From Aromatoleum toluclasticum ATCC 700605 (GTDB taxonomy: Bacteria > Pseudomonadota > Gammaproteobacteria > Burkholderiales > Rhodocyclaceae), in the NCBI RefSeq assembly GCF_000378245.1, contig NZ_KB899503.1, positions 1 to 64,000 on the forward strand: a stretch of DNA of 64,000 bases, in the 5' to 3' direction. A model generated the notes under the pieces. It was given only the letters and a program-made list of their open reading frames with translations, made no database searches and had not been told where the DNA came from. The translations under genes and the position numbers were made by a program. Position 1 is the first letter of the stretch. Every line of letters begins with the position of its first letter. Shown one piece after another: positions 1,484-47,624 of this stretch.

Positions 1484-2671
1484 ATGCTTGAAGCATACCG
1501 GGTTCTGGATCTGAGCGACCGGACCGGCTGGCTTGCCGGGCGGTTGCTCGCCGATCTCGGGGCCGACGTCATCAAGGTGGAAGGGCCCGGGGCCGACATC
1601 GACGGTCCCGACTGGCAGGCGTACAACGTCAACAAGCGGCTGCTGCGTCTCGACCTCGCGGCGCCCGGTGGCCACGCGGATTTCGAGCGGCTCGTCGCCG
1701 GCGTCGACTTCCTGGTCGAATCGGCCTCGCCGGAGGAGCGGGCGCGGATCTTCGACCCGGCGCGCCTGCGCGAGCTCAATCCGGGGCTGATCCATGTATC
1801 GGTGACGCCCTTCGGCACGAGCGGGCCGCGTGCCGATTGGCTCGCGTCCGATCTCGAGATGATGGCGGCCGGCGGCGCGATGTCGCTCGCCGGCGAGCCC
1901 GACGACGTGCCCAAGCGCGTGACCGTTCCCCAGTCCCACTGCTGGGCCGGCGCGCAGGCCGCGGTCGGCGCGCTGACGGCGCTGCTGTATCGCACCGCGA
2001 CCGGCGAGGGGCAGCACGTCGACGTGTCCGGGCAGGCGGCGGTGATCCTCGCGCTGTCGCATGCACCCGCGTTCTGGGACCTCGAAGGCATCGTGCCGAC
2101 GCGCGCCGGCGCGTTCGTGACCGGGCGCTCGATCAAGGGCGCGCGCTACCGCGCCTTCTGGCCGTGCGCCGACGGCTATCTGAACTTCGTCCTCTACGGC
2201 GGGCCCGCCGGACGACGGACCAATGCACAGCTCGTCGCGTGGATGCGCGAACGCGGTGCCGAGCTCGGCGCGCTCGCCGACATCGACTGGAAGCGCTTCG
2301 ATCCGCGGCTCGCCACGCAGCAGGACGTCGATGCGCTCGAGGGGCCGATCGCACAGTTTTTTCTCGGCCTGAAGAAAAGCGAATTCCTCGAGCAGGCGAG
2401 CCGCCGCGAGATGCTCGGCTATCCAGTTTCGACGATGCGCGACATCGCCGAGGATCCGCAGCTCGAAGCGCGCGAGTTCTGGCACGACCTGACCACTCCC
2501 GGCGGCGAGCCGCAGCGCCATTGCGGCAGCTTCGCGATCATCGACGGCAACCGGCAGCCACTCGCGCACCCGCCTGGCACTGCCGTCGACGTCCGCACGC
2601 TGCTCGCCGAATTCGGCGCGGACCGCATCCGCTCCGCGCCCGAAACCGCACACGAGAGGCAAACCGTATGA
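1484..2671 (+). CDS. Class III CoA-transferase (CaiB/BaiF), catalytic-type subunit; SptA/SptB-like
   Basis: 395 aa CaiB/BaiF-family protein starting at the ATG behind the AGGAGG-like site of CACCAGGAGGAAGCCGCG. The N-terminal fold is typical (VLDLSDRTG, LLADLGADVIKVE). An Asp at about residue 123 in ASDLEMMAAGGAM sits where class III transferases carry the Asp that forms the acyl-enzyme anhydride. It overlaps the next CoA-transferase gene by ATGA, so the two are translationally coupled and probably form a heteromer. With the UbiD gene upstream, the likely reaction is succinyl-CoA:phthalate CoA transfer. The length (395 aa) is normal for the family. The family is certain; the substrate is inferred. 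Confidence 0.88.
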   Translation: MLEAYRVLDLSDRTGWLAGRLLADLGADVIKVEGPGADIDGPDWQAYNVNKRLLRLDLAAPGGHADFERLVAGVDFLVESASPEERARIFDPARLRELNPGLIHVSVTPFGTSGPRADWLASDLEMMAAGGAMSLAGEPDDVPKRVTVPQSHCWAGAQAAVGALTALLYRTATGEGQHVDVSGQAAVILALSHAPAFWDLEGIVPTRAGAFVTGRSIKGARYRAFWPCADGYLNFVLYGGPAGRRTNAQLVAWMRERGAELGALADIDWKRFDPRLATQQDVDALEGPIAQFFLGLKKSEFLEQASRREMLGYPVSTMRDIAEDPQLEAREFWHDLTTPGGEPQRHCGSFAIIDGNRQPLAHPPGTAVDVRTLLAEFGADRIRSAPETAHERQTV

Positions 2672-3888
2672 GCGCGATCTCCCAAGCCCTGGCGGGCGTG
2701 AAAGTCGTCGAGTTCGGCGCGTACGCCGCCGGCCCGCATATCGGCAAGATGCTCGCGACCTTCGGCGCGACCGTCGTGCACATCGAATCGCACCAGCGGC
2801 CCGACGGATTCCGCACCGAATATCCGCCGTACAAGGACGGCCGGCCGGGCAAGGACCGCAGCGGCTGTTTCGCGATCTTCAACGACTCGAAATACGACGT
2901 CACGCTGGACCTGAAGACGCCCGCCGGTATCGAGGTCGCGCGACGCCTGACCGCTTGGGCCGATATCGTGATCGAGAACATGCGTCCGGACGTGATGTCC
3001 CGCCTCGGCCTCGGTTACGAGGCTGCGAAGGAGCTGAACGCGGGGGTTGTGATGATCTCGAGCTGCAACATGGGCCAGACGGGGCCGCGCGCGCAAACGC
3101 CCGGCTTCGGCTCGCAACTGTCGGCGCTCGCGGGCTTCTGCGGATTGACGGGCGATCCGGACGGCCCGCCGATGCTGCTGTACGGTCCGTATATCGACTT
3201 CATCGCGTCGACGCTGGGCGCGACCGCGGTGCTCGCGGCGCTCGACCGGCAGCGGCGCACCGGGAACGGGGCGTGGATCGATCTCGCGCAATACGAGAGC
3301 GGACTGCTGTTCGTCGCCGGTGCCTTGCTCGACTACCACACGAGCGGACGCATCGCCGAGCGGGCGAACAATGCCGACCCGGGCGCGGCTCCCCACGACG
3401 CCTATCAGTGCGGCGGCGGAACGTGGCTGGCGCTGTCGTGCTGGTCCGACGACGAATTCGCGCGCCTCGCGCAGACGCTGCGGCGGCCCGAGCTCGCCGA
3501 CGACCCGCGCTTCTCGACCATTGCCGCGCGCAAGGCCAACGGCGTCGAGCTTGACGCGATCATCGCGTCGTGTCTCGTCACGCAGGACGCCGGGGATGTC
3601 GCCGCGAGGCTTCAAGCCGCGCGGGTCCACGCGTATCCGGTCAATACGATCGCGGACCTCTTCCGCGACCCGCAGCTCGCCTACCGACGGATCTGGCGAC
3701 GACGCCTGCACGGCGAGATCGGCGACGTGGCCTGCTATTTCTCGGCCTTCGATCTGTCGGCCACGCCCGGCGATGTGACGGGCGCAGCCCCCCGCCTCGG
3801 GGAAGACAACGCGCTGGTGTCTCGTGATTTCCTGGGGATCTCCGAACAGGAATACGCGGCGCTCGAGGAGCAGGGGGCGTTCGCGTGA
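2668..3888 (+). CDS. Class III CoA-transferase (CaiB/BaiF), partner subunit; SptA/SptB-like
   Basis: 406 aa CaiB/BaiF-family protein. The start ATG at 2668 overlaps the stop of the preceding transferase (ATGA). The N-terminus VKVVEFGAYAAGPHIGKMLATFGATVVHIES and the WADIVIENMRPDVM motif are diagnostic. At the usual catalytic-Asp position the sequence reads TPGFGSQLSALAGF (Gly148/Ser149), so the Asp seems to be missing and this would be the non-catalytic partner of a heteromeric enzyme, as in BbsEF-type or succinyl-CoA:phthalate CoA-transferases. Followed by a 204-base gap and the TRAP transporter genes. Function as a phthalate-activating subunit is inferred from the neighbourhood. Confidence 0.87.
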   Translation: MSAISQALAGVKVVEFGAYAAGPHIGKMLATFGATVVHIESHQRPDGFRTEYPPYKDGRPGKDRSGCFAIFNDSKYDVTLDLKTPAGIEVARRLTAWADIVIENMRPDVMSRLGLGYEAAKELNAGVVMISSCNMGQTGPRAQTPGFGSQLSALAGFCGLTGDPDGPPMLLYGPYIDFIASTLGATAVLAALDRQRRTGNGAWIDLAQYESGLLFVAGALLDYHTSGRIAERANNADPGAAPHDAYQCGGGTWLALSCWSDDEFARLAQTLRRPELADDPRFSTIAARKANGVELDAIIASCLVTQDAGDVAARLQAARVHAYPVNTIADLFRDPQLAYRRIWRRRLHGEIGDVACYFSAFDLSATPGDVTGAAPRLGEDNALVSRDFLGISEQEYAALEEQGAFA

Positions 3889-4092: not shown

Positions 4093-5073
4093 ATGTTGCG
4101 CACCATTATTTTTGGGGTCGTGTTTGCGTTGTCCAGTCTTGGCGCGAATGCGGAACCTTACAAGATGACGCTATCGGGCGCGAGCCCGAGCGGGCTGTGG
4201 ACCATGATCGGCATCGGCATCGACGGCGCCGTCAAGGAAAGTTTTCCCGGCTCGTCGATCACGTATCAAACGTCGGGCGGCGGACTCGCGAACATCGCGC
4301 TGCTCGACCAGGGCAAGGTCGAGCTCGGCATCGCGCATGACGCCGAGCTGCGCATCGCGAGCTCCGGCGCGAAACCGTTCTCCAAGCCGATCACGAGCCT
4401 GCGCGCGCTTGCGCTGTTGTACAACTGGGCGCCGATGCAGATGGTGATGTCGAAGGCGTTCGCGGAGAAGTACCAGATCCACAGCTTCGACGACATCGCA
4501 GCCAAGAAACCGCCGCTGCGGCTCGCGCTGAACAAGCGCGGCAACATCACCGAGCACGTCGCCGTCGAGATGTTCAAGGCGATCGGCGTCAATCTCGACG
4601 ACATCAAGAAATGGGGCGGCGACGTCATCTACGCGGCTTCCGACGAGCAGGGCGATCTGATGAAGGACAAGCGGATCGACATGTTCGCCAACGGCGTGTT
4701 CGTCCGCACGAGCTTCATCGTGCAGGCGGGCGATGCGGTCGAACTCGTCCTGCTGCCCGTCTCCGATCGCGCCGTCGAGAAAGTGTCGCAGGAGCTGAGC
4801 GTCGCGCCCTTCACCGTGAAAGCCGGCAGCTACGCGTGGCAGCCGACGGACGTGCCGACGGTGGCCTTGAGCGCGGTGCTGGTCGTCAATAGCCACATGG
4901 ACGACAAGGTCGCGCACGATCTCGCGGGCGCGCTGCACAAGCACATCGACAAGCTGCAGGGCGCGCACGGCAGCCTGAAGGTGATCACGCCCGAGTTCCT
5001 CGCGAGCCAGAAGATCGTGCCCTATCACAAGGGCGCCGAAGACTATTACCGGGAAGCCGGGCTGCTGAAGTAG
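4093..5073 (+). CDS. TAXI-family TRAP transporter solute-binding receptor
   Basis: 326 aa periplasmic receptor with a clear Sec signal peptide (MLRTIIFGVVFALSSLGANA-EPYK) behind a strong ribosome site (AAGGAGGAGACAG, ATG). The mature part opens KMTLSGASPSGLWTMIGIGIDGAVKESFPGSSITYQTSGG, typical of TAXI receptors (TRAP-associated extracytoplasmic immunogenic-type). It would capture the substrate, by context phthalate or another aromatic carboxylate, and hand it to the fused permease encoded 196 bases downstream. TAXI receptors usually pair with 4TM/12TM fused permeases, as here. The ligand cannot be read from the sequence. Confidence 0.88.
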   Translation: MLRTIIFGVVFALSSLGANAEPYKMTLSGASPSGLWTMIGIGIDGAVKESFPGSSITYQTSGGGLANIALLDQGKVELGIAHDAELRIASSGAKPFSKPITSLRALALLYNWAPMQMVMSKAFAEKYQIHSFDDIAAKKPPLRLALNKRGNITEHVAVEMFKAIGVNLDDIKKWGGDVIYAASDEQGDLMKDKRIDMFANGVFVRTSFIVQAGDAVELVLLPVSDRAVEKVSQELSVAPFTVKAGSYAWQPTDVPTVALSAVLVVNSHMDDKVAHDLAGALHKHIDKLQGAHGSLKVITPEFLASQKIVPYHKGAEDYYREAGLLK

Positions 5074-5269: not shown

Positions 5270-7183
5270 GTGTCCAGTATGAGCCTTTCATTTCTGAGCA
5301 GATTCCTGACGTCCGGCGCGCGCCGCGACCCGACCCACTGTGCCGGCTGGGTGCTCAAACCGCTGGCGGCGCTGATCGCGGTCGGCATCGTCTGGGTCAC
5401 GACGATCCAGATCGTCCAGATCTACGCGATGACGATCGTGTTTCTCGGACTGATGCTTGCGCTGGTGTTCCTGTCGACCGGCGCGACCGCGAGCTCGAAC
5501 CGCGACCGCGTGCCGGTCTGGGACGGCCTGCTCGCCGCGGCGAGCCTCGCCATTTCGGCCTATTTCTGGTTCAACAACGAGCGGATCATCACGCGCATCA
5601 CGCTGCTCGACGAGCTCACGACCGGCGACCTCGTCTGCGGCAGCGGCCTGCTGCTGATCACGCTCGAGGCGACGCGGCGCACCGTCGGCCCGGGGCTCAC
5701 GTCGATCGTGCTCATGTTCCTCGCCTACAACCTGTGGGGCGATCTGCTGCCCGGCGTGCTCGGCCACGGTCCCATCGACTATCCGCACTTTCTCGACGTG
5801 CTCGCGTTTACCACCGACGGCATTTTCGGCGCGCCGATCCGGGTCGCATTGACTTACGTCTTCCTGTTCGGTCTTTTCGGCACTTTTCTCTCGCGCGCCG
5901 GAGGAGGCGACTTCTTCTTCGATGCCGCGGCCGCCGTCAGCGGCAGGAGCCCCGGCGGTCCGGCGAAGATCGCCGTGGCGTCGTCGGGGCTGTACGGCAC
6001 GATTTCCGGCAGTCCGACCGCCGACGTCGTGACGACCGGCTCGATCACGATTCCGATGATGAAGAAGCTCGGCTATTCGGGCGCAGTCGCCGGGGGCATC
6101 GAAGTCGCAGCCTCGACCGGCGGTAGCATCCTGCCGCCGGTCATGGGCTCGGCCGCCTTCATCATGGCCGAATTCACCGGCATCCGTTACACCGACATCG
6201 CCGTCGCCGCGATCGTGCCGGCCTTGCTCTACTACTTCTGTCTTTACCTGCAGGTGCATCTGCGCTCGCTCAAGGACGGGATCACCGGCCTCGACGACGT
6301 GCCGGCGCTCGCGGACACGATGCGCCGCGGCGGTATGTTCCTGGTTCCGCTGCTCGCGCTGGTCGCCGCGCTGCTGATCGGCTACTCGCCCAATTTCGTC
6401 GCCGCGTTCGGTACCCTCGCCGTCGTCGCGGTCGCGATGTCCCGGCGCGAGACGCGTTTCGGCCTGAAAGGGCTTTACGACATCCTCGCCGAAGCGACGC
6501 TACGCATCGTCCCGGTCGTCGCCGCCTGCGCCGCGGCAGGGCTGGTTGTGGGGGGGCTGTCGATGACCGGCCTCGGCGTGAAAGTCGCCGATCTGATCTT
6601 CCTCATTGCCGGATCCAACCTGTTCGTCTCGCTGCTGGTCGCCGCGGTCATCACGCTGGTCCTCGGGATGGGCATGCCGACGCCGAGCGTCTACATCCTG
6701 GCCGCCGTACTGGTCGCGCCGGCGCTGACGAAGCTCGGCGTGTCGCTGATGGCGGCGCACCTCTTTCTCGTCTATTACGCGAGCCTGTCCGCGATGACGC
6801 CGCCGATCGCGGTCGCCGCGTTCGCCGCCGCGCCGATCGCGCTCGCCAATCCGCTCGCGGTCGGTCTTGCCGCCGTGCGCATCTCGATCACCGCGTTCGT
6901 CGTTCCATTCGCGTTCGTCTACAACGAGGGCGTCCTGCTGTCCGGATCGACGGGCCAGATCGTGCTCGCGTGCGTCGCGACGGCGGCCGCGGCCGGCTGT
7001 CTTTGCCTCGCGACCGAGGGCTACTGGAAGCGGCAGCTCGGCGTGGTGCACCGTCTGTGCTTTCTCGGTGCCGGTGTCGGCCTGATGGTTCCTTCGTATC
7101 AGGTCCAGATGGCCTCGGCGCTCGCTGCCGCCATAGGCGGTTGGCTTGTATGGCATGGAATGGCGGCCGATCGCAGTGCCTGA
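5270..7183 (+). CDS. TRAP transporter fused permease (4TM/12TM, DctQM-type)
   Basis: 637 aa membrane protein if the GTG at 5270 is used (634 aa from the ATG at 5279); GAGGAG at 5257-5262 precedes the GTG. It is the fusion of the small (DctQ) and large (DctM) TRAP permease subunits. Early hydrophobic segments include AALIAVGIVWVTTIQIVQIYAMTIVFLGLML; the large-subunit part carries GLYGTISGSPTADVVTTGSITIPMMKKLGYSG, AASTGGSILPPVMGSAAF, LGMGMPTPSVYI and YYASLSAMTPPIAVAAF, the conserved DctM motifs. It moves the receptor-delivered carboxylate inward with Na+/H+ and belongs to the presumed phthalate module. Confidence 0.92.
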   Translation: MSSMSLSFLSRFLTSGARRDPTHCAGWVLKPLAALIAVGIVWVTTIQIVQIYAMTIVFLGLMLALVFLSTGATASSNRDRVPVWDGLLAAASLAISAYFWFNNERIITRITLLDELTTGDLVCGSGLLLITLEATRRTVGPGLTSIVLMFLAYNLWGDLLPGVLGHGPIDYPHFLDVLAFTTDGIFGAPIRVALTYVFLFGLFGTFLSRAGGGDFFFDAAAAVSGRSPGGPAKIAVASSGLYGTISGSPTADVVTTGSITIPMMKKLGYSGAVAGGIEVAASTGGSILPPVMGSAAFIMAEFTGIRYTDIAVAAIVPALLYYFCLYLQVHLRSLKDGITGLDDVPALADTMRRGGMFLVPLLALVAALLIGYSPNFVAAFGTLAVVAVAMSRRETRFGLKGLYDILAEATLRIVPVVAACAAAGLVVGGLSMTGLGVKVADLIFLIAGSNLFVSLLVAAVITLVLGMGMPTPSVYILAAVLVAPALTKLGVSLMAAHLFLVYYASLSAMTPPIAVAAFAAAPIALANPLAVGLAAVRISITAFVVPFAFVYNEGVLLSGSTGQIVLACVATAAAAGCLCLATEGYWKRQLGVVHRLCFLGAGVGLMVPSYQVQMASALAAAIGGWLVWHGMAADRSA

Positions 7184-7213: not shown

Positions 7214-7864
7214 ATGCGCTTGACCAGCAGCTGTTTCGAGGACGACGGAAGAATTCCGCAAGAATGCGCGTTTGCCGCGCCTCACCCGGAGACGCGGATC
7301 GGCCTGTCACGCAATCTCAATCCCGCGCTCGCGTGGAGCGGTCTTCCAGCGGGCACGAAGTCGCTGGTCGTCATCTGCCACGATCCCGACGTGCCGTCGG
7401 TGCTCGACGACTTCAATCGGGAAGGGCGGGTCGTGTCGGCGGCGGTTCCGCGGATCGACCTGTATCACTGGGCCCTGGTCGATCTGCCGCCCGAGTTGCC
7501 GGGCATCGGGAAAGGGGAGTTCTCGGACGCCGTCGTTCCCCGCGGCAAACCCGGGCCCGACGCGCCGCATAGCACCCGGCAGGCGCTCAACGATTACACC
7601 CAATGGTTTGTCGGCGACGAGCACATGGCGGGGCAGTATTTCGGCTACGACGGGCCGTGCCCGCCGTGGAACGACGAGATTCCGCACCGTTACGTGTTTA
7701 CGCTGTACGCGCTCGACATTGCGAAATGTCCCGTGTCGGGGACCTTCGGCGCACGCGATGTCGTCGAGGCGATTCGTCCGCATGTGCTGGCCGAGGCGAC
7801 GCTGACCGGACGTTACACGCTCAATCCCGATGTCGCCCTCTGCGGGGCCGAGGCAGGAGCATAG
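7214..7864 (+). CDS. PEBP-like protein (YbhB/YbcL family)
   Basis: 216 aa, ATG at 7214 behind TGAGGAAAA. Phosphatidylethanolamine-binding-protein fold signatures are present: LNPALAWSGLPAGTKSLVVICHDPDVP (the DPD ligand-pocket motif) and YFGYDGPCPPWNDEIPHRYVFTLYALD (the GxxHRY motif). It is longer than E. coli YbhB/YbcL (about 158-183 aa), mainly through a loop insert DDFNREGRVVSAAVPR. There is no signal peptide. It lies between the TRAP permease and nadC, with 7 bases to the latter, so it is probably co-transcribed. PEBPs bind small anions and phosphate-like ligands; a role with an aromatic acid, its CoA ester or a cofactor is speculation. Confidence 0.85.
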   Translation: MRLTSSCFEDDGRIPQECAFAAPHPETRIGLSRNLNPALAWSGLPAGTKSLVVICHDPDVPSVLDDFNREGRVVSAAVPRIDLYHWALVDLPPELPGIGKGEFSDAVVPRGKPGPDAPHSTRQALNDYTQWFVGDEHMAGQYFGYDGPCPPWNDEIPHRYVFTLYALDIAKCPVSGTFGARDVVEAIRPHVLAEATLTGRYTLNPDVALCGAEAGA

Positions 7865-7871
7865 GACTGCG

Positions 7872-8714
7872 ATGAACGACTCGACTCTCGAACTCGACGT
7901 CGCGTCCGCGGTGCGCGCGGCGCTCGAGGAAGACATCGGCGAAGGCGATTACACGGCGAATCTGCTTCCTGCCGACCGCCAGGCATACGCGACGGTGATC
8001 AGCCGCCAAGCGGCGGTGGTGTGCGGCGCCCCATGGTTCGAACAATGTTTTCGCGAGCTGGACCCCGGCGTCGAGATCCGCTGGCGCGCAGCGGACGGCG
8101 TCGAAGTCTCGCCCGGGGACGTCGTGTGCGAAATCGCCGGCAACGCGCGTGCGCTCTTGAGTGCCGAGCGCGCGGCGCTGAATTTCCTGCAGACGCTTTC
8201 AGCCACCGCGACGGCGACGCGGCGCTACGTCGAGGCGATTCCCGGCACCCCCGCGCGAATCTACGACACCCGCAAGACCTTGCCCGGTCTGCGCATGGCG
8301 CAAAAATACGCGGTGCGGGTCGGGGGCGGCCACAATCACCGCATGGGTCTTTATGCGGGCGTGCTGATCAAGGAAAACCACATCGCCGTGGCGGGCGGCA
8401 TCCCGCAGGCGCTGCGATCCGCGGAAGCCTTCACGCCGGCCGGCATTCCGCTGCAGATCGAGGTGGAGAACCATGCCGAGCTCGAGGCTGCGCTCGCAGC
8501 CGGGGCGAAGCTGATCCTGCTCGACAACTTCAGCGTCGAGCAAATGCGCGAGGCAGTCGCGATCACCGCGGGGCGGGCCGAGCTCGAAGCCTCGGGCGGC
8601 ATCACGCTCGACAATCTGCGCGAAGTGGCGGAAACGGGTGTCGATCGCATCTCGATCGGAAGCCTTACCAAGGACGTCAAGGCGATCGACCTGTCGATGC
8701 GTATCAGTTGCTAG
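7872..8714 (+). CDS. nadC: Nicotinate-nucleotide pyrophosphorylase (quinolinate phosphoribosyltransferase)
   Basis: 280 aa from the ATG at 7872; the frame stays open upstream into the PEBP gene, but MNDSTLELDVASAVRAALEEDIGEGDYT is the normal NadC beginning. Conserved motifs: NFLQTLSATATATRRYV, IYDTRKTLPGLRMAQKYAVR, GGGHNHRMGLYAGVLIKENHI, and C-terminal EASGGITLDNL. The enzyme joins quinolinate and PRPP to give nicotinate mononucleotide, CO2 and PPi in NAD synthesis. nadA and nadB are absent nearby and the gene sits in a phthalate-type operon. Phthalate is a known quinolinate analogue and ligand of this enzyme family, so a specialised or inhibitor-tolerant copy is a reasonable idea. The catalytic motifs look intact. 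Confidence 0.93.
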   Translation: MNDSTLELDVASAVRAALEEDIGEGDYTANLLPADRQAYATVISRQAAVVCGAPWFEQCFRELDPGVEIRWRAADGVEVSPGDVVCEIAGNARALLSAERAALNFLQTLSATATATRRYVEAIPGTPARIYDTRKTLPGLRMAQKYAVRVGGGHNHRMGLYAGVLIKENHIAVAGGIPQALRSAEAFTPAGIPLQIEVENHAELEAALAAGAKLILLDNFSVEQMREAVAITAGRAELEASGGITLDNLREVAETGVDRISIGSLTKDVKAIDLSMRISC

Positions 8715-8727
8715 GGGAGAAGCGAGG

Positions 8728-9432
8728 ATGTCTCGATACCACGCAGTTCACGAACCGGAAGAGAAGCTCGAAGCGACAGGAGATGCCACCTCGTGCGTCG
8801 CCCGTGGTCGCCCGCCTCTGAGTGTGCGTTTCATCGCATCGAGTCAGCTGCCGACGCGGTGGGGCCTTTTCGTCGCCCACAGTTTCGTCGATGCGGTTCA
8901 CAAGGAACATCTGGTTCTGACGCTGGGCGACGTCGCCGGGGACGAGCCGGTGCTTACGCGAATCCATTCGGAATGTCTCACCGGTGACGCGCTTTTCAGC
9001 CAGCGCTGCGACTGTGGCCATCAATTGCGCAGTGCGCTGCAACAGATCGGCAGCGAAGGCAGGGGAGTGCTGATCTACCTGCGCCAGGAGGGGCGGGGTA
9101 TCGGGCTGCACAACAAGATTAGGGCATATGGTCTGCAGGATTGCGGTGCGGACACCGTGGATGCCAATCTGCGCCTGGGATTTTCGGTCGACGCCCGGGA
9201 ATATGCGGTTTGCGGCCCGATGCTCGCGCATATCGGCGTGCGGCGACTACGCTTGATGACGCACAATCCGGCGAAGACCAATGCCTTGACGGCGATGGGA
9301 TTCGAAGTCGTCGAGCGCGTGGCGTTGCCGAGCGGACGAAACGCCCACAACGCGGCCTATCTCGACACGAAAGCAGGTCGCATGGGACATGTCTTCGACC
9401 TCGTGGGCGAGAATGCTGGCGCCGAGCAATAG
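8728..9432 (+). CDS. ribA: GTP cyclohydrolase II
   Basis: 234 aa from the ATG at 8728, preceded by GGGGAGAAGCGAGG; the frame is open upstream but lacks homology there. RibA hallmarks: RIHSECLTGDALFSQRCDCGHQL with the zinc-binding cysteines, the YLRQEGRGIGL substrate motif, and AYGLQDCGADTVDANLRLGF. It is a stand-alone RibA without a RibB (DHBP synthase) domain, with a roughly 35-residue N-terminal extension. It opens GTP to the first riboflavin/FMN precursor. Its position at the end of an operon that begins with a UbiD enzyme suggests extra flavin supply for prenyl-FMN; that link is inference. A strong terminator follows. Confidence 0.93.
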   Translation: MSRYHAVHEPEEKLEATGDATSCVARGRPPLSVRFIASSQLPTRWGLFVAHSFVDAVHKEHLVLTLGDVAGDEPVLTRIHSECLTGDALFSQRCDCGHQLRSALQQIGSEGRGVLIYLRQEGRGIGLHNKIRAYGLQDCGADTVDANLRLGFSVDAREYAVCGPMLAHIGVRRLRLMTHNPAKTNALTAMGFEVVERVALPSGRNAHNAAYLDTKAGRMGHVFDLVGENAGAEQ

Positions 9433-9532: not shown

Positions 9533-9564
9533 CCATCCAGCACATGTGCTGGATGGTTCTTTTT
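9533..9564 (+). terminator. Rho-independent terminator after ribA
   Basis: A perfect 24-base palindrome, arms CCATCCAGCACA / TGTGCTGGATGG (9533-9556), is followed by TTCTTTTTCC. It ends the operon 100 bases after the ribA stop and also marks the border with the lower-GC mobile region. Confidence 0.85.
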
Positions 9565-9614: not shown

Positions 9615-9887
9615 ATGTGGGCGCGGCCGCGCGCAGTGATCAGACAGGAGCCAGGTTGTAGCAGCCGTTTCCAGAGCTACACCGCTGTTGCGGCCGCATA
9701 TGCGGTGGCCATGGTGGCTGAGAACGCGGTGAAGATGGTGGACGGGACGATCGCTGAATCTCGTATTGTCAGTTGGGTGCGTGGCCAGCGTTATCTGAAT
9801 GACCAGCGACATGGCCTGACGCTGCGGGACTGGGCGGCCATGGCTACGCCGCATGATGGATTGGTTATTGAACGCTCATTCCCGTGA
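9615..9887 (+). pseudogene. C-terminal remnant of a ThiF/E1-like protein
   Basis: The open frame of up to 90 codons encodes SSRFQSYTAVAAAYAVAMVAENAVKMVDG...SWVRGQRYLNDQRHGLTLRDWAAMA, which resembles the C-terminal helix region of ThiF/HesA-type E1 proteins found in bacterial E1-E2-JAB operons. No nucleotide-binding or catalytic part lies upstream: the preceding DNA is the ribA terminator. The stop overlaps the GTG start of the JAMM gene (GTGA), a coupling expected of a former E1-JAB operon. I therefore read it as a gene cut off at its 5' end, with the breakpoint between 9565 and about 9650. The assignment rests on context and pattern and is only moderately sure. Confidence 0.4.
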
Positions 9888-10411
9888 ACAATCGACTGTT
9901 CTTCTACCCGGACTACGGGAGCTACGTCCTCTTCACGGCCAGTGCGCTCGAGCATATGTATAGGCATGTTCAGCGACGATTGTGGCAGAAGGAGGCCGGC
10001 GGGGAGATTTATGCAATCGATCCAGACGCCCAGAGCCTTATCGTGACTACTGCCACGGGACCTAACAGAGGCGACCGCCGCACTCGGCATTCCTACAATC
10101 CAGACATCGAAGCAGCAGCCCGTGATCGAGAGCGGCAGTTCGCCGCGGGTTTGCATGCTGTTGGGTTGTGGCACACGCATCCGGAAGCAGACCCCAGTCC
10201 ATCTGGCCAAGATCGACAGACAACCAAAGAATACCTATCTGCTTTCCAGAGAGACAGGGAACGCTATTTGATGGTGATTGTTGGCAATTGCGGTAACCCG
10301 CCGAACGTGAAGGCATGGGTAGCCAGCCGGGACGCTCGTGTCACATGGATAGAATTGGCTGAGGAGTCAATAAGTTCGGTTTCGAAGAGTGATTTATTTC
10401 GGGGAGCTTAG
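9884..10411 (+). CDS. JAMM/MPN (JAB) isopeptidase, Cap3-like
   Basis: 175 aa starting at GTG 9884, overlapping the preceding E1-like remnant. The metalloprotease signature is complete: Glu41 (KEAGGEIY) and GLWHTHPEADPSPSGQD (His97, His99, Ser107, Asp110; ten residues between the second His and Asp). Bacterial JAB proteins of this size, encoded next to E1/E2-like genes, remove ubiquitin-like or cyclase conjugates in type II CBASS (Cap3) and related defence operons. No cyclase, effector or intact E1/E2 is present, so the system is probably a leftover. Base composition is lower in GC than the flanking catabolic genes. Confidence 0.8.
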   Translation: MNNRLFFYPDYGSYVLFTASALEHMYRHVQRRLWQKEAGGEIYAIDPDAQSLIVTTATGPNRGDRRTRHSYNPDIEAAARDRERQFAAGLHAVGLWHTHPEADPSPSGQDRQTTKEYLSAFQRDRERYLMVIVGNCGNPPNVKAWVASRDARVTWIELAEESISSVSKSDLFRGA

Positions 10412-10516: not shown

Positions 10517-11695
10517 CTACCAACCGATCCGATGCTTTTGCTCCGTCTCCCTGTGACGAACATCGTCGTCCGTATGCAAGTACTGGCTGGTGGTCTTCAG
10601 CGATTCATGTCCCAAATTGTCGCGGATCGAGCGCAGGTCAATCTGCTGATCCGCCATATGCGAACCAGCGGTGTGCCGTAGCCAGTGAGCGGAGGCGCGT
10701 TCGAGTTGATTGGCTCGAGCGGCGTATTCCTCGCCACGTTGCCGTAGCCGGGAAGCGGCGCCGTCGAAGACCTTTTTCACGATCGCGTGCAGCGCGGCCC
10801 GGGTCAGCGGTTCCCGTGATTTGCCGATGGGAAGTACGAGCGGGGTGTCCTCGGTGGGCGTGGGGTAGGGGGCAAGCCCGCACTCACGCCGGTACCGGGC
10901 GAGTTCCACGATCATTTCATTGGTAGCCGGTACTAACCGTTCCTTCTCGCCCTTGCCGAGCACTTCCAGCCACCAACGCTCCTCGCCGTCCCGATCGCGC
11001 CGGCAGAAGAAGCCGCCCATGGTGTTGTAGCCGACTTCGGAGATCCGCAGTCCGCCCAGGTAGAGGAGGGTGAAGAGCCACCGGATTCGAAAATAGTGGG
11101 CCCGTTGTCGATCGGTCTCGCACGGCATGCCCTCGATGTAGGCCTTCACCTCCTGCCAGAGATCGGGGTCGAGGTAACGCGTGATGCGAGGTTTGGGGCG
11201 ACGAGTACGATGCCGCGACAACGACAGCGGATTGCCGGCCAGGTAGCCGGCCTCGACGAGCCACGCGAACATCACGTTGAGGATCACCATCGCTTGCCGC
11301 TGGCTTGTCGGGGCCAGTGGTCCATAGAACGGGCGCCAGCGTGGATCGCCCCGGGGGTGCTTCCGACCGGCGCCGGCCAACCATTTGTCGCGCGGCTGCG
11401 GATCGGCGAGAAAACGCTGGTAGACGAGGAAATCCTCGTGCGTGAGCGACGAGATCGGCCGTCCGAGCTGAAACACCGCCCAGAGATACAGCCGCTCGGC
11501 TTCCTTGCGGTAGTTATCGAAGGTCGTGCGTGTGTCGGCAAAGCGCGCGAGCCACGCCTGGATCGCCTGCAGATCGTTAATTGCCGCAATCTGGGCCACC
11601 TTGCCGACGGCACGATTGTGGCCGTGACTGCCATCCAGATCCGACGGAAGCCGGAGGCCCTCGAACGGGCCGGGAACCATGAGGGAATCAGTCAT
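10517..11695 (-). CDS. Tyrosine recombinase/site-specific integrase, TnpS-like by context
   Basis: 392 aa from the ATG at 11695 (403 aa if the ATG at 11728 is used; GAGG lies just before the shorter start). Features: an N-terminal SAM-like DNA-binding domain, then the catalytic domain with RISEVGYNTMGG (first Arg), a Lys in the beta-hairpin region (EVLGKGEKERLVP), SAHWLRHTAGSHMADQ (HxxRH) and NLGHESLKTTSQYLHTDDD (His and the nucleophile Tyr). It diverges from a KfrA-like coiled-coil gene with a short intergenic region containing an inverted repeat with a 6-base spacer. This is the layout of the TnpS/TnpT cointegrate-resolution systems of Tn4651-type transposons. No transposase is in the window. 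Confidence 0.85.
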   Translation of the reverse strand: MTDSLMVPGPFEGLRLPSDLDGSHGHNRAVGKVAQIAAINDLQAIQAWLARFADTRTTFDNYRKEAERLYLWAVFQLGRPISSLTHEDFLVYQRFLADPQPRDKWLAGAGRKHPRGDPRWRPFYGPLAPTSQRQAMVILNVMFAWLVEAGYLAGNPLSLSRHRTRRPKPRITRYLDPDLWQEVKAYIEGMPCETDRQRAHYFRIRWLFTLLYLGGLRISEVGYNTMGGFFCRRDRDGEERWWLEVLGKGEKERLVPATNEMIVELARYRRECGLAPYPTPTEDTPLVLPIGKSREPLTRAALHAIVKKVFDGAASRLRQRGEEYAARANQLERASAHWLRHTAGSHMADQQIDLRSIRDNLGHESLKTTSQYLHTDDDVRHRETEQKHRIGW

Positions 11696-11761
11696 TTTCC
11701 GCATCCTCGGAGCGATCCTGGGCCTCATTATTTTCTAACCATGAACGTACCGCTAGTTTTC

Positions 11762-15900: not shown

Positions 15901-16317
15901 ATGGCGACGTTGCGACTACCGGCCCCGCTGCGCGACAAGCTCATCTCTGCGGCGCAGACGGGTTATCCCGACGAGGTGTGCGGACTCCTGCTGGGGCGGC
16001 AGGATGCCGACGCCGTGACCGTATGCGCGGTCCATGCCGCCCGCAACGTGCACCCGGATCGCACCGCGGACCGTTTCCTGATCGAAGCGCAGGATTATCT
16101 GGACGCCGAGTACGAGGCTGCCGCCAGTGGGCTGCAGGTGGTCGGTGTGTGGCACTCGCATCCGGACCATCCGCCCCGCCCGTCCGCCACCGATCGCGAA
16201 TTCGCGTGGGCGGGCTGGTCCTATCCGATCGTCGCCGTCAATGCCGGCGTCGCCACCGAGCTGCGATCGTGGCGGCTGGAGGGCGAAACCTTCGACGAAG
16301 AGGAGGTGCTGTCATGA
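15901..16317 (+). CDS. JAMM/M67 metallopeptidase, Mec-like (CysO-cysteine peptidase type)
   Basis: 138 aa, ATG at 15901 behind GAGGGGGCCTCC. The JAMM motif is complete: Glu25 (YPDEVCGLLLG) and VGVWHSHPDHPPRPSATD (His85, His87, Ser95, Asp98). It is the first gene of a tight operon: it overlaps the Ubl-rhodanese-E1 fusion by ATGA, and a cysteine synthase follows. In Mycobacterium tuberculosis the counterpart Mec cuts cysteine off the CysO carrier protein, so here it should release cysteine from the Ubl domain, and may also cut the fused Ubl free. A promoter probably lies in the AT-rich stretch just upstream (TATTATCTAACAT). Confidence 0.88.
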   Translation: MATLRLPAPLRDKLISAAQTGYPDEVCGLLLGRQDADAVTVCAVHAARNVHPDRTADRFLIEAQDYLDAEYEAAASGLQVVGVWHSHPDHPPRPSATDREFAWAGWSYPIVAVNAGVATELRSWRLEGETFDEEEVLS

Positions 16318-17765
16318 GCCGAGTCATCGTTCGCATTCCGACTCCGCTGCGTTCCTACACGGATGGCGCCGACGAAGTCGAGGTCGAGGCCGCCACGGTC
16401 GGCGATGCGCTGCAGGCGCTGGCCCATCGTCACGAAGGGCTGTTGTCGCGCGTGTGTGCGGCCGACGGATCGCTGCGCCCCTTCGTGAACATTTACCTCG
16501 GCGCGGACAACATACGCGACCTTGGCGGACTCGCGGTTGCCCTGCCCCATGACGGCGCCGTGCTCGCGATCGTTCCTGCGGTGGCAGGTGGCGCGGGCGG
16601 CGCGCGCGAACGGCGCATCACGGAACTGAAGGCCAGCGTGCCCGAGGTCGGTCCGCGCGAAGCGTTGGCCCAACAGGCGCAAGGCGCAGCACTGATCGAC
16701 GTGCGCGAGGCGGACGAGATCGCCCAGGGCAGCCCCCGCGGCGCATTCCGCCTCGGTCGCGGTTTTCTCGAACTGCGCGTGGAGGAAGCCATTCCGGATA
16801 CCGACCGGCCGCTGCTGATAATGTGCGGCGGAGGCGTCCGCTCGCTGTTCGCGGCCGAAGGCCTGCAGCGGCTCGGCTATCGCAAGGTCGCGTCGGTGGC
16901 CGGCGGTTTCTCGCGCTGGAAGGCGGAAGGCCTGCCCTTCGAGACCCCGCGCGGCCTCGATCCGCACGCGCGCGAACGCTATGCGCGCCACCTGACGATG
17001 CCGGAAGTCGGCGAAGCCGGGCAGCGGCGCCTGCTGGACAGCCGCGTGCTGCTGATCGGGGCAGGCGGACTGGGCTCGCCGGCGGCCCTGTATCTCGCCG
17101 CGGCCGGTGTCGGCACGCTGGGCATCGTCGACCACGACGTCGTCGATCGCTCCAACCTGCAACGGCAGATCCTGCACAACGACGAACGCATCGGCCAGCC
17201 CAAGGTCGACTCCGCGCGCCGCACGCTGCAGGGCCTCAACCCGTCCGTGGACATCGCAACCTGGGCGGAACGCCTCACTTCCGCCAACGTGGAACGCATC
17301 CTCGAAGGCTACGACGTGGTCGTCGACGGCTCCGACAACTTCCCCACCCGCTACCTCGTCAACGACGCCTGCGTGCGCCTGCAGATTCCCTGCGTACACG
17401 GCTCCGTGTACCGCTTTGAAGGCCAGGTCACGGTGTTCTGGCCGGCTTATCCGACGCGGCGCGGCCCCTGCTATCGCTGCCTCTATCCCGAACCGCCCCC
17501 CGCCGAATTTGCGCCTTCGTGCGCGGACGCGGGCGTGCTGGGCGTATTGCCCGGCGTCGTGGGGCTGCTCGAAGCGGTCGAGACGATCAAGCTGCTACTG
17601 GGTCTGGGCGACCCGCTGGTCGGGCGGCTGCTGCATTACGACGCCCTGCGCGCCCGCTTCGACGAATACCGGCTCGCCGCGAATCCCGACTGCGCGCTGT
17701 GCGCGGAAGGGCGCGCGTTCCCGGGCTACGTCGACTACGACGCATTCTGCGCAACGGCTGCGTAA
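16314..17765 (+). CDS. Fusion protein: MoaD/ThiS-like Ubl + rhodanese + MoeB/ThiF E1
   Basis: 483 aa from the ATG at 16314. Residues 1-93 are a MoaD/CysO-like ubiquitin fold (MSRVIVRIPTPLRSYTDG...VNIYLGADNIR...AIVPAVAGG) whose diglycine (92-93) is internal. About 105-210 is a rhodanese domain with active-site CGGGVRS. About 215-483 is an E1-like adenylyltransferase with GAGGLGSPAALYLAAAGVG, the LQRQILH motif, and zinc-binding CxxC pairs (PCYRC and CALC). One polypeptide thus holds the sulfur carrier, the sulfur donor and the activating enzyme for thiocarboxylate formation. A free C-terminal GG is needed for adenylation, so processing after Gly93 or an unusual mechanism is implied. A Mec-like protease precedes it and a cysteine synthase follows. 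Confidence 0.88.
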   Translation: MSRVIVRIPTPLRSYTDGADEVEVEAATVGDALQALAHRHEGLLSRVCAADGSLRPFVNIYLGADNIRDLGGLAVALPHDGAVLAIVPAVAGGAGGARERRITELKASVPEVGPREALAQQAQGAALIDVREADEIAQGSPRGAFRLGRGFLELRVEEAIPDTDRPLLIMCGGGVRSLFAAEGLQRLGYRKVASVAGGFSRWKAEGLPFETPRGLDPHARERYARHLTMPEVGEAGQRRLLDSRVLLIGAGGLGSPAALYLAAAGVGTLGIVDHDVVDRSNLQRQILHNDERIGQPKVDSARRTLQGLNPSVDIATWAERLTSANVERILEGYDVVVDGSDNFPTRYLVNDACVRLQIPCVHGSVYRFEGQVTVFWPAYPTRRGPCYRCLYPEPPPAEFAPSCADAGVLGVLPGVVGLLEAVETIKLLLGLGDPLVGRLLHYDALRARFDEYRLAANPDCALCAEGRAFPGYVDYDAFCATAA

Positions 17766-17788
17766 GCGTGCTGCAACGGAAAACGGTC

Positions 17789-18727
17789 ATGGCAGCGATC
17801 CCGATCCGCGAATCCGCCCTGCTCTCCGGCGTCGGACACGTTCCGCTGGTCGAAGTCCACGCCGCCCGCGAGCTGGCGCCCGCTTGCCGTGTGTTTGCCA
17901 CCCTGGAGGGTGTGAATCCCGGCGGCTCGATCAAGGACCGCCCGGTCGTGCGCATGTTGATGAAGGCCCTGCAGACCGGTCGCCTCGACGGCGGACGGCG
18001 GCTGCTCGATTCGTCGTCCGGCAATGCGGGAATCTCCTACGCCCTGTACGGCGCGGCGCTGGGCGTGTCGGTCACTCTCGTCGTGCCGGGCAATGCCAGC
18101 CGCGAACGCCTGGATCGCATCCGCGCCAGCGGCGCCGAACTGATCCTCACCGATCCGCTGGAAGGATACGACTTCGCCGTAGCCGAGGCACGCCGCCTGG
18201 CGCGCGACCATCCCGACCGCTATTGGTACTGCGACCAGTATTCGAACCCCGAGAACTGGCGCGCGCATTACGAAACCACCGGCCCCGAACTGCTGCGGGG
18301 CGTAGTCGCCCACACCGGGCGGCCGCCGGACGCATTCGTCGCGGGCATCGGCACCGGCGGCACGCTGACGGGTGTCGCGCGCCGGCTCAAGGAGGGCCGG
18401 CCGGCAACGATCGTGGTCGCGGCGATTCCCGACGAATTCCCCGGCATCGAAGGCCTCAAGCCCCTCGGCCATCCGGGCGACATGGTGCCGGCGATTCTCG
18501 ACGAAGGCCTGATCGACCGTCGCGTGCCGGTGCGCATGGAAGACGCCATCCCGATGTGCCGGAAGCTGGCGAAAACGGGCTTGTTCGTCGGCCCGTCGGC
18601 CGGCGCGCTGGTGCATGTCGCCTGCCGGGTCGCCGTCGAGGATGGCTTGCGCTGCATCGCGACGGTGCTGCCCGACACCGGCGAGCGCTACGTGTCGACC
18701 GGACTCTGGTCGGGTGGAGACGGGTAA
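17789..18727 (+). CDS. PLP-dependent cysteine synthase family protein (CysM/CysO-dependent type)
   Basis: 312 aa from the ATG at 17789, 23 bases after the fusion gene. Fold-type II PLP motifs: LEGVNPGGSIKDR with the PLP-binding Lys, LLDSSSGNAGISYALYGAALG for the substrate loop, and GIGTGGTLTGVARRLKE for phosphate binding. The C-terminus is LPDTGERYVSTGLW. Neighbours point to use of a protein thiocarboxylate as sulfur donor with an activated serine as acceptor, as for mycobacterial CysM, not free sulfide. The acceptor (O-phosphoserine or O-acetylserine) cannot be decided from the sequence. Confidence 0.88.
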   Translation: MAAIPIRESALLSGVGHVPLVEVHAARELAPACRVFATLEGVNPGGSIKDRPVVRMLMKALQTGRLDGGRRLLDSSSGNAGISYALYGAALGVSVTLVVPGNASRERLDRIRASGAELILTDPLEGYDFAVAEARRLARDHPDRYWYCDQYSNPENWRAHYETTGPELLRGVVAHTGRPPDAFVAGIGTGGTLTGVARRLKEGRPATIVVAAIPDEFPGIEGLKPLGHPGDMVPAILDEGLIDRRVPVRMEDAIPMCRKLAKTGLFVGPSAGALVHVACRVAVEDGLRCIATVLPDTGERYVSTGLWSGGDG

Positions 18728-47447: not shown

Positions 47448-47522
47448 TGGTGGGCGGTACTGGGATCGAACCAGTGACCCCTGCCGTGTGAAGGCAGTGC
47501 TCTACCGCTGAGCTAACCGCCC
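47448..47522 (-). tRNA. tRNA-Val (anticodon CAC), copy 2
   Basis: The - strand reads GGGCGGTTAGCTCAGCGG..., anticodon stem CTGCC / GGCAG with loop TTCACAC (anticodon CAC), T-arm GGTTCGATCC, and acceptor ending CCGCCCA. The 3' CCA is encoded. Identical in sequence to the copy 27 bases upstream. Confidence 0.95.
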
Positions 47523-47549
47523 GGAATTCCGTGCGTCTTCGTCATCGAC

Positions 47550-47624
47550 TGGTGGGCGGTACTGGGATCGAACCAGTGACCCCTGCCGTGTGAAGGCAGT
47601 GCTCTACCGCTGAGCTAACCGCCC
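47550..47624 (-). tRNA. tRNA-Val (anticodon CAC), copy 1
   Basis: Same sequence as the neighbouring copy, CCA encoded. First gene of the two-tRNA operon, 13 bases from the deduced transcription start. Confidence 0.95.

Follow-up and report, generated by a model that had tools for sequence, protein, structure and literature searches.

An accessory nadC gene in a putative anaerobic phthalate operon of Aromatoleum toluclasticum and its recurrence near phthalate degradation genes

Why would a gene for NAD synthesis stand among genes for the anaerobic breakdown of phthalate? The question is raised by a nadC gene near one end of contig NZ_KB899503.1 (C13 in our numbering) of Aromatoleum toluclasticum ATCC 700605 (RefSeq assembly GCF_000378245.1). 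The whole stretch of DNA analyzed, hereafter the window, comprises positions 1 to 64,000 of the forward strand of this contig. An initial annotation made from the letters alone had placed the gene in an anaerobic phthalate-type operon and had proposed that it serves phthalate tolerance, as a phthalate-insensitive replacement for the housekeeping enzyme. We examined the surroundings of the gene, its occurrence in related genomes and on plasmids, its predicted active site, and its descent.

The nadC gene, its operon, and other NAD and flavin genes

The open reading frame is intact in translation, with an ATG start and 280 amino acids followed by a stop codon. It scores above the curated cut-off of TIGR00078, the NCBIfam equivalog model for nadC, and matches both Pfam domains, QRPTase_N and QRPTase_C. 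Its product is probably active as a quinolinate phosphoribosyltransferase (QPRTase). The genes of the operon lie on one strand in the order UbiD, two class III CoA-transferases, TAXI protein, TRAP permease, PEBP, nadC, and ribA (Table 1), with intergenic gaps of 30 bp between the TRAP permease and PEBP genes, 7 bp between PEBP and nadC, and 13 bp between nadC and the ribA ATG (8728). Profile matches agree with the initial annotation, which had described a complete nadC amid TRAP, PEBP, and ribA genes, downstream of UbiD and class III CoA-transferase genes. The hairpin after ribA is weak evidence by itself, as the scanned 6.2 kb held six terminator-like sites versus a mean of 4.8 in shuffled sequences.

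Table 1. Features of the predicted operon (window coordinates)
Feature	Coordinates	Strand	Support
UbiD-family phthaloyl-CoA decarboxylase gene (predicted), 5' part cut by window/contig edge	1..1449	+	Pfam UbiD/UbiD_C
Class III CoA-transferase, putative succinyl-CoA:phthalate CoA-transferase subunit	1484..2671	+	PF02515, 1.2e-55
Class III CoA-transferase, second subunit	2668..3888	+	PF02515, 1.4e-101; start at 2668
TAXI-family TRAP solute-binding protein	4093..5073	+	TIGR02122, 144.8 bits (cut-off 84.35)
Fused TRAP permease	5270..7183	+	TIGR02123, 570.7 bits (cut-off 320.65)
YbhB/YbcL-type PEBP protein	7214..7864	+	TIGR00481, 77.7 bits (cut-off 57.75)
nadC, accessory quinolinate phosphoribosyltransferase	7872..8714	+	TIGR00078, 317.2 bits (cut-off 198.4)
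ribA, GTP cyclohydrolase II	8728..9432	+	NF001591, 260.7 bits, and TIGR00505, 248.6 bits, both above cut-off
Terminator-like hairpin after ribA, 10-pair stem, T-rich tail	9533..9556	+	

The window starts at the end of its contig. Contig C23 ends in the same 175 bp with which the window begins, and right before this end it carries a gene for a UbiX-type flavoprotein (stretch L096:16551-17222). By homology, and for UbiX by way of this overlap, the components of an anaerobic phthalate (phthaloyl-CoA) gene cluster are present: UbiX, a UbiD-type decarboxylase, a CoA-transferase pair, and a TRAP importer. The UbiD product is 96% identical over 468 aa to its counterpart in Aromatoleum evansii KB740, a match that bears out the assignment to an anaerobic phthalate-type operon, and the first and second CoA-transferases are 77% and 79% identical to theirs in the same cluster. 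The bacterium probably degrades phthalate without oxygen.

A search of the genome (5.92 Mb in 46 contigs) ruled out that the operon copy is the only nadC, since one other full-length NadC, 58% identical to it, is encoded on contig C21 (C21:37256-38074). nadA had a single match, on contig C3. nadB had 11 matches at E ≤ 0.001, one of them (C19) over the cut-off and ten below it. Neither gene is on the window contig, in line with the earlier remark that nadC stands without nadA or nadB beside it. A second RibA copy (C8:52630-53208) is 59% identical to the operon ribA product, and operon ribA is likely a flavin supply for the prenylated FMN (prFMN) of the UbiX/UbiD pair.

A third NadC match in the genome, of 36 aa only (C28:31481-31588), is a relic, in which about 31 to 36 residues align within 400 bp translated. 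One end of contig C28 carries the last 60 codons of a UbiD gene whose product is 92% identical to that of the window, and 60 bp at the opposite end are shared with the DNA that follows UbiX on C23. Because both ends match pieces of the UbiX/UbiD region, C28 may represent a second, partly decayed phthalate-type locus, or else a small circular element.

Recurrence of nadC near anaerobic and aerobic phthalate genes

Distribution of the gene in anaerobic relatives of the cluster was analyzed in 79 loci fetched by decarboxylase similarity, each scored for NadC within the fetched stretch. NadC was found in five: those of A. evansii, Sulfuritalea, a Nitrosomonadales bin, and two Sterolibacterium bins. 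All five were among the ten loci with a decarboxylase at least 91% identical to that of the window. The remaining five of these ten had no NadC in the DNA fetched, which extended 10 kb downstream for L010, L012, and L013 and only 0.6 and 6.7 kb for L011 and L018. No NadC was found in the fetched stretches, many of them short, of the 69 loci with UbiD below 91% identity.

The A. evansii KB740 cluster (L007) has the order UbiX-UbiD-CoAT-CoAT-TAXI-TRAP-PEBP-NadC-RibA, as here, and its NadC and RibA are 83% and 82% identical to the window proteins; it differs in a 0.7-kb gap between the TRAP and PEBP genes. A. evansii is among the phthalate degraders named in the accessible text of PMC13040137, which gives the strain number as KB470. 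In the Sulfuritalea locus (L008), PEBP, NadC, and RibA genes are consecutive, and ABC-transporter and further UbiD genes replace the TRAP genes. In the Nitrosomonadales locus (L009), NadC adjoins RibA and the PEBP homologue lies about 4 kb upstream. The PEBP of the window has homologues in these three loci; genes for YbhB/YbcL-type PEBP proteins recur near UbiD-type decarboxylase genes in four fetched loci (the same three and L023). A PEBP gene whose product is 26% identical to that of the window also lies near aerobic phthalate genes in Caballeronia zhejiangensis (L189:11300-11869).

A whole-genome NadC search took in 26 of the 79 decarboxylase loci. A second NadC was present elsewhere in four of the five source genomes of NadC-bearing clusters, and in the fifth, a 98% complete draft of a Sterolibacterium bin (G022), the cluster copy was found alone. 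Its congener G067 has both copies, so we read the missing housekeeping NadC of G022 as a probable gap and did not take this genome as proof that a cluster copy can replace the housekeeping enzyme.

Among 61 related genomes, 56 had a NadC match (E ≤ 1e-30), and four had two: A. toluclasticum itself (G000), G003, G034, and G043. Every one of the 17 same-genus genomes encoded NadC, with a second full copy in two (the own genome and G003). The decarboxylase (E ≤ 1e-100) was encoded by eight of the 61 genomes and by six of the 17. Within the genus, a second NadC thus occurred in 2/6 decarboxylase carriers versus 0/11 non-carriers; its absence from the other four carriers indicates that the gene is optional. 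The second full-length NadC of G043 had no phthalate genes nearby; when five of its neighbors were searched, two matched Pfam (GGDEF and autotransporter) and three matched nothing. The extra copy of G034 was broken and lay beside transposase genes, again with no phthalate genes nearby.

The strongest support for a phthalate link came from a sample of 150 genomes from the class (completeness 95% or more; NadC threshold E ≤ 1e-40), since these were not chosen for phthalate. A NadC match was found in 131, and two copies in three: the own genome, G168, and G223. One copy in G223 adjoins homologues of the aerobic phthalate genes PhtA, PhtB, and PhtC, and in G168 homologues of PhtB and PhtC lie 4 to 7 kb from one copy. 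No PhtB- or PhtC-like genes were found in the stretches around the other G168 copy or the own C21 copy. This support comes from two genomes besides the own one.

Plasmids were searched in two ways. NadC matched 303 plasmid records; seven regions were opened from this list, and six had PhtC-like genes, five of them within the stretch. On a Neptuniibacter plasmid, the PhtC-like gene was about 11 kb from nadC. Sixteen regions were opened by PhtC, out of 76 records, and four had NadC inside 9-kb flanks (Paraburkholderia hospita, Thalassospira, Sphingobium AntQ-1, and S. xenophagum); one further region, with NadC about 11 kb away, was on the same Neptuniibacter plasmid. In total, nadC was near a PhtC-like (4,5-dihydroxyphthalate decarboxylase) gene on ten plasmids. 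On those of Massilia WG5, Acidovorax P3, Polaromonas CJ2, Novosphingobium KA1 (pCAR3), Sphingobium CAP-1, and five others, nadC lies between or close to genes resembling those of 4,5-dihydroxyphthalate decarboxylase and reductase, with the decarboxylase of Acidovorax P3 matching in three pieces. The nadC products of these aerobic clusters are 46 to 59% identical to the window copy and fall in clades other than that of the window copy. A nadC on a Pseudomonas veronii plasmid, with neighbors ampD, ampE, and coaE, was treated as housekeeping.

The presence of NadC in part of the decarboxylase loci and of the PhtC regions indicates a real link with phthalate, but one that neither the aerobic nor the anaerobic pathway type requires. 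This association supports the view that the nadC copy of A. toluclasticum serves growth on phthalate, and it lends support to the tolerance part of the initial proposal; the insensitivity part did not fare as well, as described below.

Contact residues and the probable role of the second copy

Residues that contact quinolinate in the Mycobacterium tuberculosis enzyme are given as R105', R139, R162, K172, and H175 in the accessible text of PMC4065032. We placed them by motif from the primers listed there; the M. tuberculosis chain itself was not part of the alignment. The window equivalents, R100, R134, R157, K167, and H170, are all present. These five residues were identical in 17 of 17 phthalate-linked rows and in 124 of 124 other rows of the NadC alignment, and both NadC proteins of this genome share them. 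With the contact residues intact, the simplest reading is a normal enzyme in extra amount, not a resistant one.

We therefore consider it likely that the operon nadC encodes an ordinary QPRTase whose extra dosage keeps NAD synthesis up during anaerobic growth on phthalate. The gene would be made together with the anaerobic phthalate pathway, through co-transcription and induction by phthalate, while the TRAP system would import phthalate. At the single housekeeping NadC, free phthalate would then be a competitor of quinolinate and would slow NAD synthesis; the operon copy would raise total QPRTase so that NAD synthesis could keep pace. Operon enzymes may also divert some quinolinate, adding to demand, and the adjacent ribA copy would meet the demand of UbiX and UbiD for flavin (prFMN).

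A precedent for an accessory QPRTase is known from Burkholderia cepacia DBO1, whose phthalate route is aerobic. The gene there, reportedly named ophE and one of two dissimilar genes, is said to be induced by phthalate, with phthalate acting as a competitive inhibitor and quinolinate being co-metabolized. Like OphE as described, the operon copy is a QPRTase putatively tied to growth on phthalate: it is a second, dissimilar copy placed with phthalate genes, here by homology and of anaerobic type. It differs in its setting, an anaerobic route with a CoA-transferase and a prFMN decarboxylase, and in its neighbors, TRAP, PEBP, and ribA. The QPRTase of DBO1 enhances growth on phthalate and is not required for its metabolism (Chang and Zylstra 1999, J Bacteriol 181:3069, as cited in the accessible text of PMC6051330).

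The initial annotation had instead suggested that the operon enzyme is itself resistant, discriminating quinolinate from phthalate and so replacing a blocked housekeeping enzyme. Its limited identity to the housekeeping copy would fit such a change. Its further support came from a scan for residue enrichment that covered all columns of the alignment with a residue in the window copy; the top three positions were Gln195 (16/18 phthalate-linked versus 25/123 other rows), Met158, which adjoins the Arg162 equivalent (15/18 versus 28/123), and Ala172 (17/18 versus 45/123). These enrichments were unconfirmed once relatedness was allowed for: a kinship-aware test had three independent pairs on supported branches, too few to reach 0.05 in either direction, and the median sign-test P value over these pairs was 1 for Met158 and Ala172 and 0.5 for Gln195. 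We do not draw on the three residues as evidence of resistance, given the small number of pairs and the occurrence of Met158 in 28 ordinary rows. The comparison of active sites that the annotation had called for thus gave the same contact residues in both NadC copies, and nearby a few enriched residues judged on three pairs only.

Two further positions, near the phosphoribosyl side, differ within the phthalate-linked rows; the labels used there for K140, E201, and D222 equivalents are tentative. The residue after the presumed D222 equivalent (Asn) is Asp in 3 of 17 phthalate-linked rows, and 5 of the 17 have Asp directly behind Lys167; in both cases the window copy has the common residue. Phthalate differs from quinolinate solely in a CH in place of the ring N, so that telling the two apart is chemically hard. 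For human QPRT, the accessible text of PMC4726147 gives a Kd of 5.2 µM for phthalate versus 4.8 µM for quinolinate, with phthalate holding the enzyme in a state unable to proceed to product. Invariance of the contact residues in both sets of rows weighs against a resistant enzyme, which we regard as unlikely; extra dosage is favored over insensitivity to phthalate.

Another reading, which we hold to be quite improbable, is that nadC and ribA form a general NAD and flavin supply at the end of a demanding anaerobic pathway, with phthalate inhibition playing no part. The two genes are neighbors in the window and in the A. evansii, Sulfuritalea, and Nitrosomonadales loci, and for each of them this genome has another copy elsewhere. 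Yet nadC recurs with aerobic phthalate genes without ribA: no ribA homologue was found in the opened plasmid stretches with nadC and PhtC-like genes, so phthalate, and not prFMN, is the common factor for nadC. For the two Sterolibacterium clusters, the DNA fetched stops 1 and 3 kb past nadC and likewise showed no ribA, and the lack of NadC from the fetched stretches of the 69 less similar decarboxylase loci, many of them short, also speaks against a general supply function. That the enzyme acts on a pyridine dicarboxylate also degraded by the operon, the second option of the initial annotation, is highly improbable: quinolinate can serve as a substrate for a phthalate 3,4-dioxygenase (accessible text of PMC13040137), but the eight operon genes, UbiD through ribA, gave no match to a pyridine-catabolism family in NCBIfam or Pfam, and the gene order is of the A. 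evansii type.

Descent of the phthalate-linked copies

A NadC tree was built from 57 rows after removal of five fragments (L144, three; L174, one; L184, one). One clade (100/99) holds the cluster copies of the window, A. evansii, Nitrosomonadales, and Sulfuritalea, and the other NadC proteins of these hosts fall outside it. The housekeeping NadC on C21 belongs to the same family as the operon copy; it groups with the NadC proteins of other genus members, whereas the operon copy does not. The two Sterolibacterium anaerobic-cluster copies group with the aerobic phthalate copy of Massilia WG5 (100/99), a grouping suggestive of exchange between phthalate clusters of the aerobic and the anaerobic type.

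A larger set of 141 rows comprised 18 phthalate-linked and 123 other proteins, with matches shorter than 220 aa and duplicates left out; compared with the rows examined for contact residues, it lacks one near-duplicate and includes the G223 copy. In the resulting tree, phthalate-linked copies fell into seven maximal clades, not one, and required seven label changes, at least three of them forced by supported branches. Several recruitments of nadC, or recruitment with transfer between clusters, are thus likely. A broader scenario combines repeated independent recruitment protecting NAD synthesis, transfer between aerobic and anaerobic clusters, and a shifted selectivity in some copies, including this one, through pocket-adjacent residues such as Met158; taken as a whole, we find it rather doubtful.

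The concept of an accessory nadC is not new, having been described for aerobic B. cepacia DBO1; what may be new is its anaerobic, prFMN-dependent setting and its repeated recruitment. Among the matches listed in a literature search that linked nadC or quinolinate to phthaloyl-CoA or to the anaerobic breakdown of phthalate, none placed nadC in an anaerobic cluster, which is no claim of absence from print. A term search of the accessible text of a multi-omics paper on anaerobic phthalate clusters (PMC8269228) gave no mention of quinolinate, nicotinate, or nadC. Our reading would extend from aerobic to anaerobic phthalate degraders the idea that a pollutant substrate poisons the NAD synthesis of its own degrader, and the A. 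toluclasticum genome supplies, in one organism, an enzyme pair for testing it. The idea may help to explain why degraders differ in their tolerance of phthalate and may matter for engineered phthalate degradation.

Other features of the window were recorded in passing. On the 3' side of the operon are genes for a JAB-domain protein with weak similarity to Cap3 isopeptidase (9884-10411) and for a tyrosine recombinase (10517-11728), which together may mark a mobile region. Consecutive open reading frames at 15901-18727 resemble, by eye, a JAB protein, a sulfur-carrier/E1-like fusion, and a cysteine synthase-like protein. At 47448-47624 lies a perfect direct repeat of 75 bp, whose copies start 102 bp apart.
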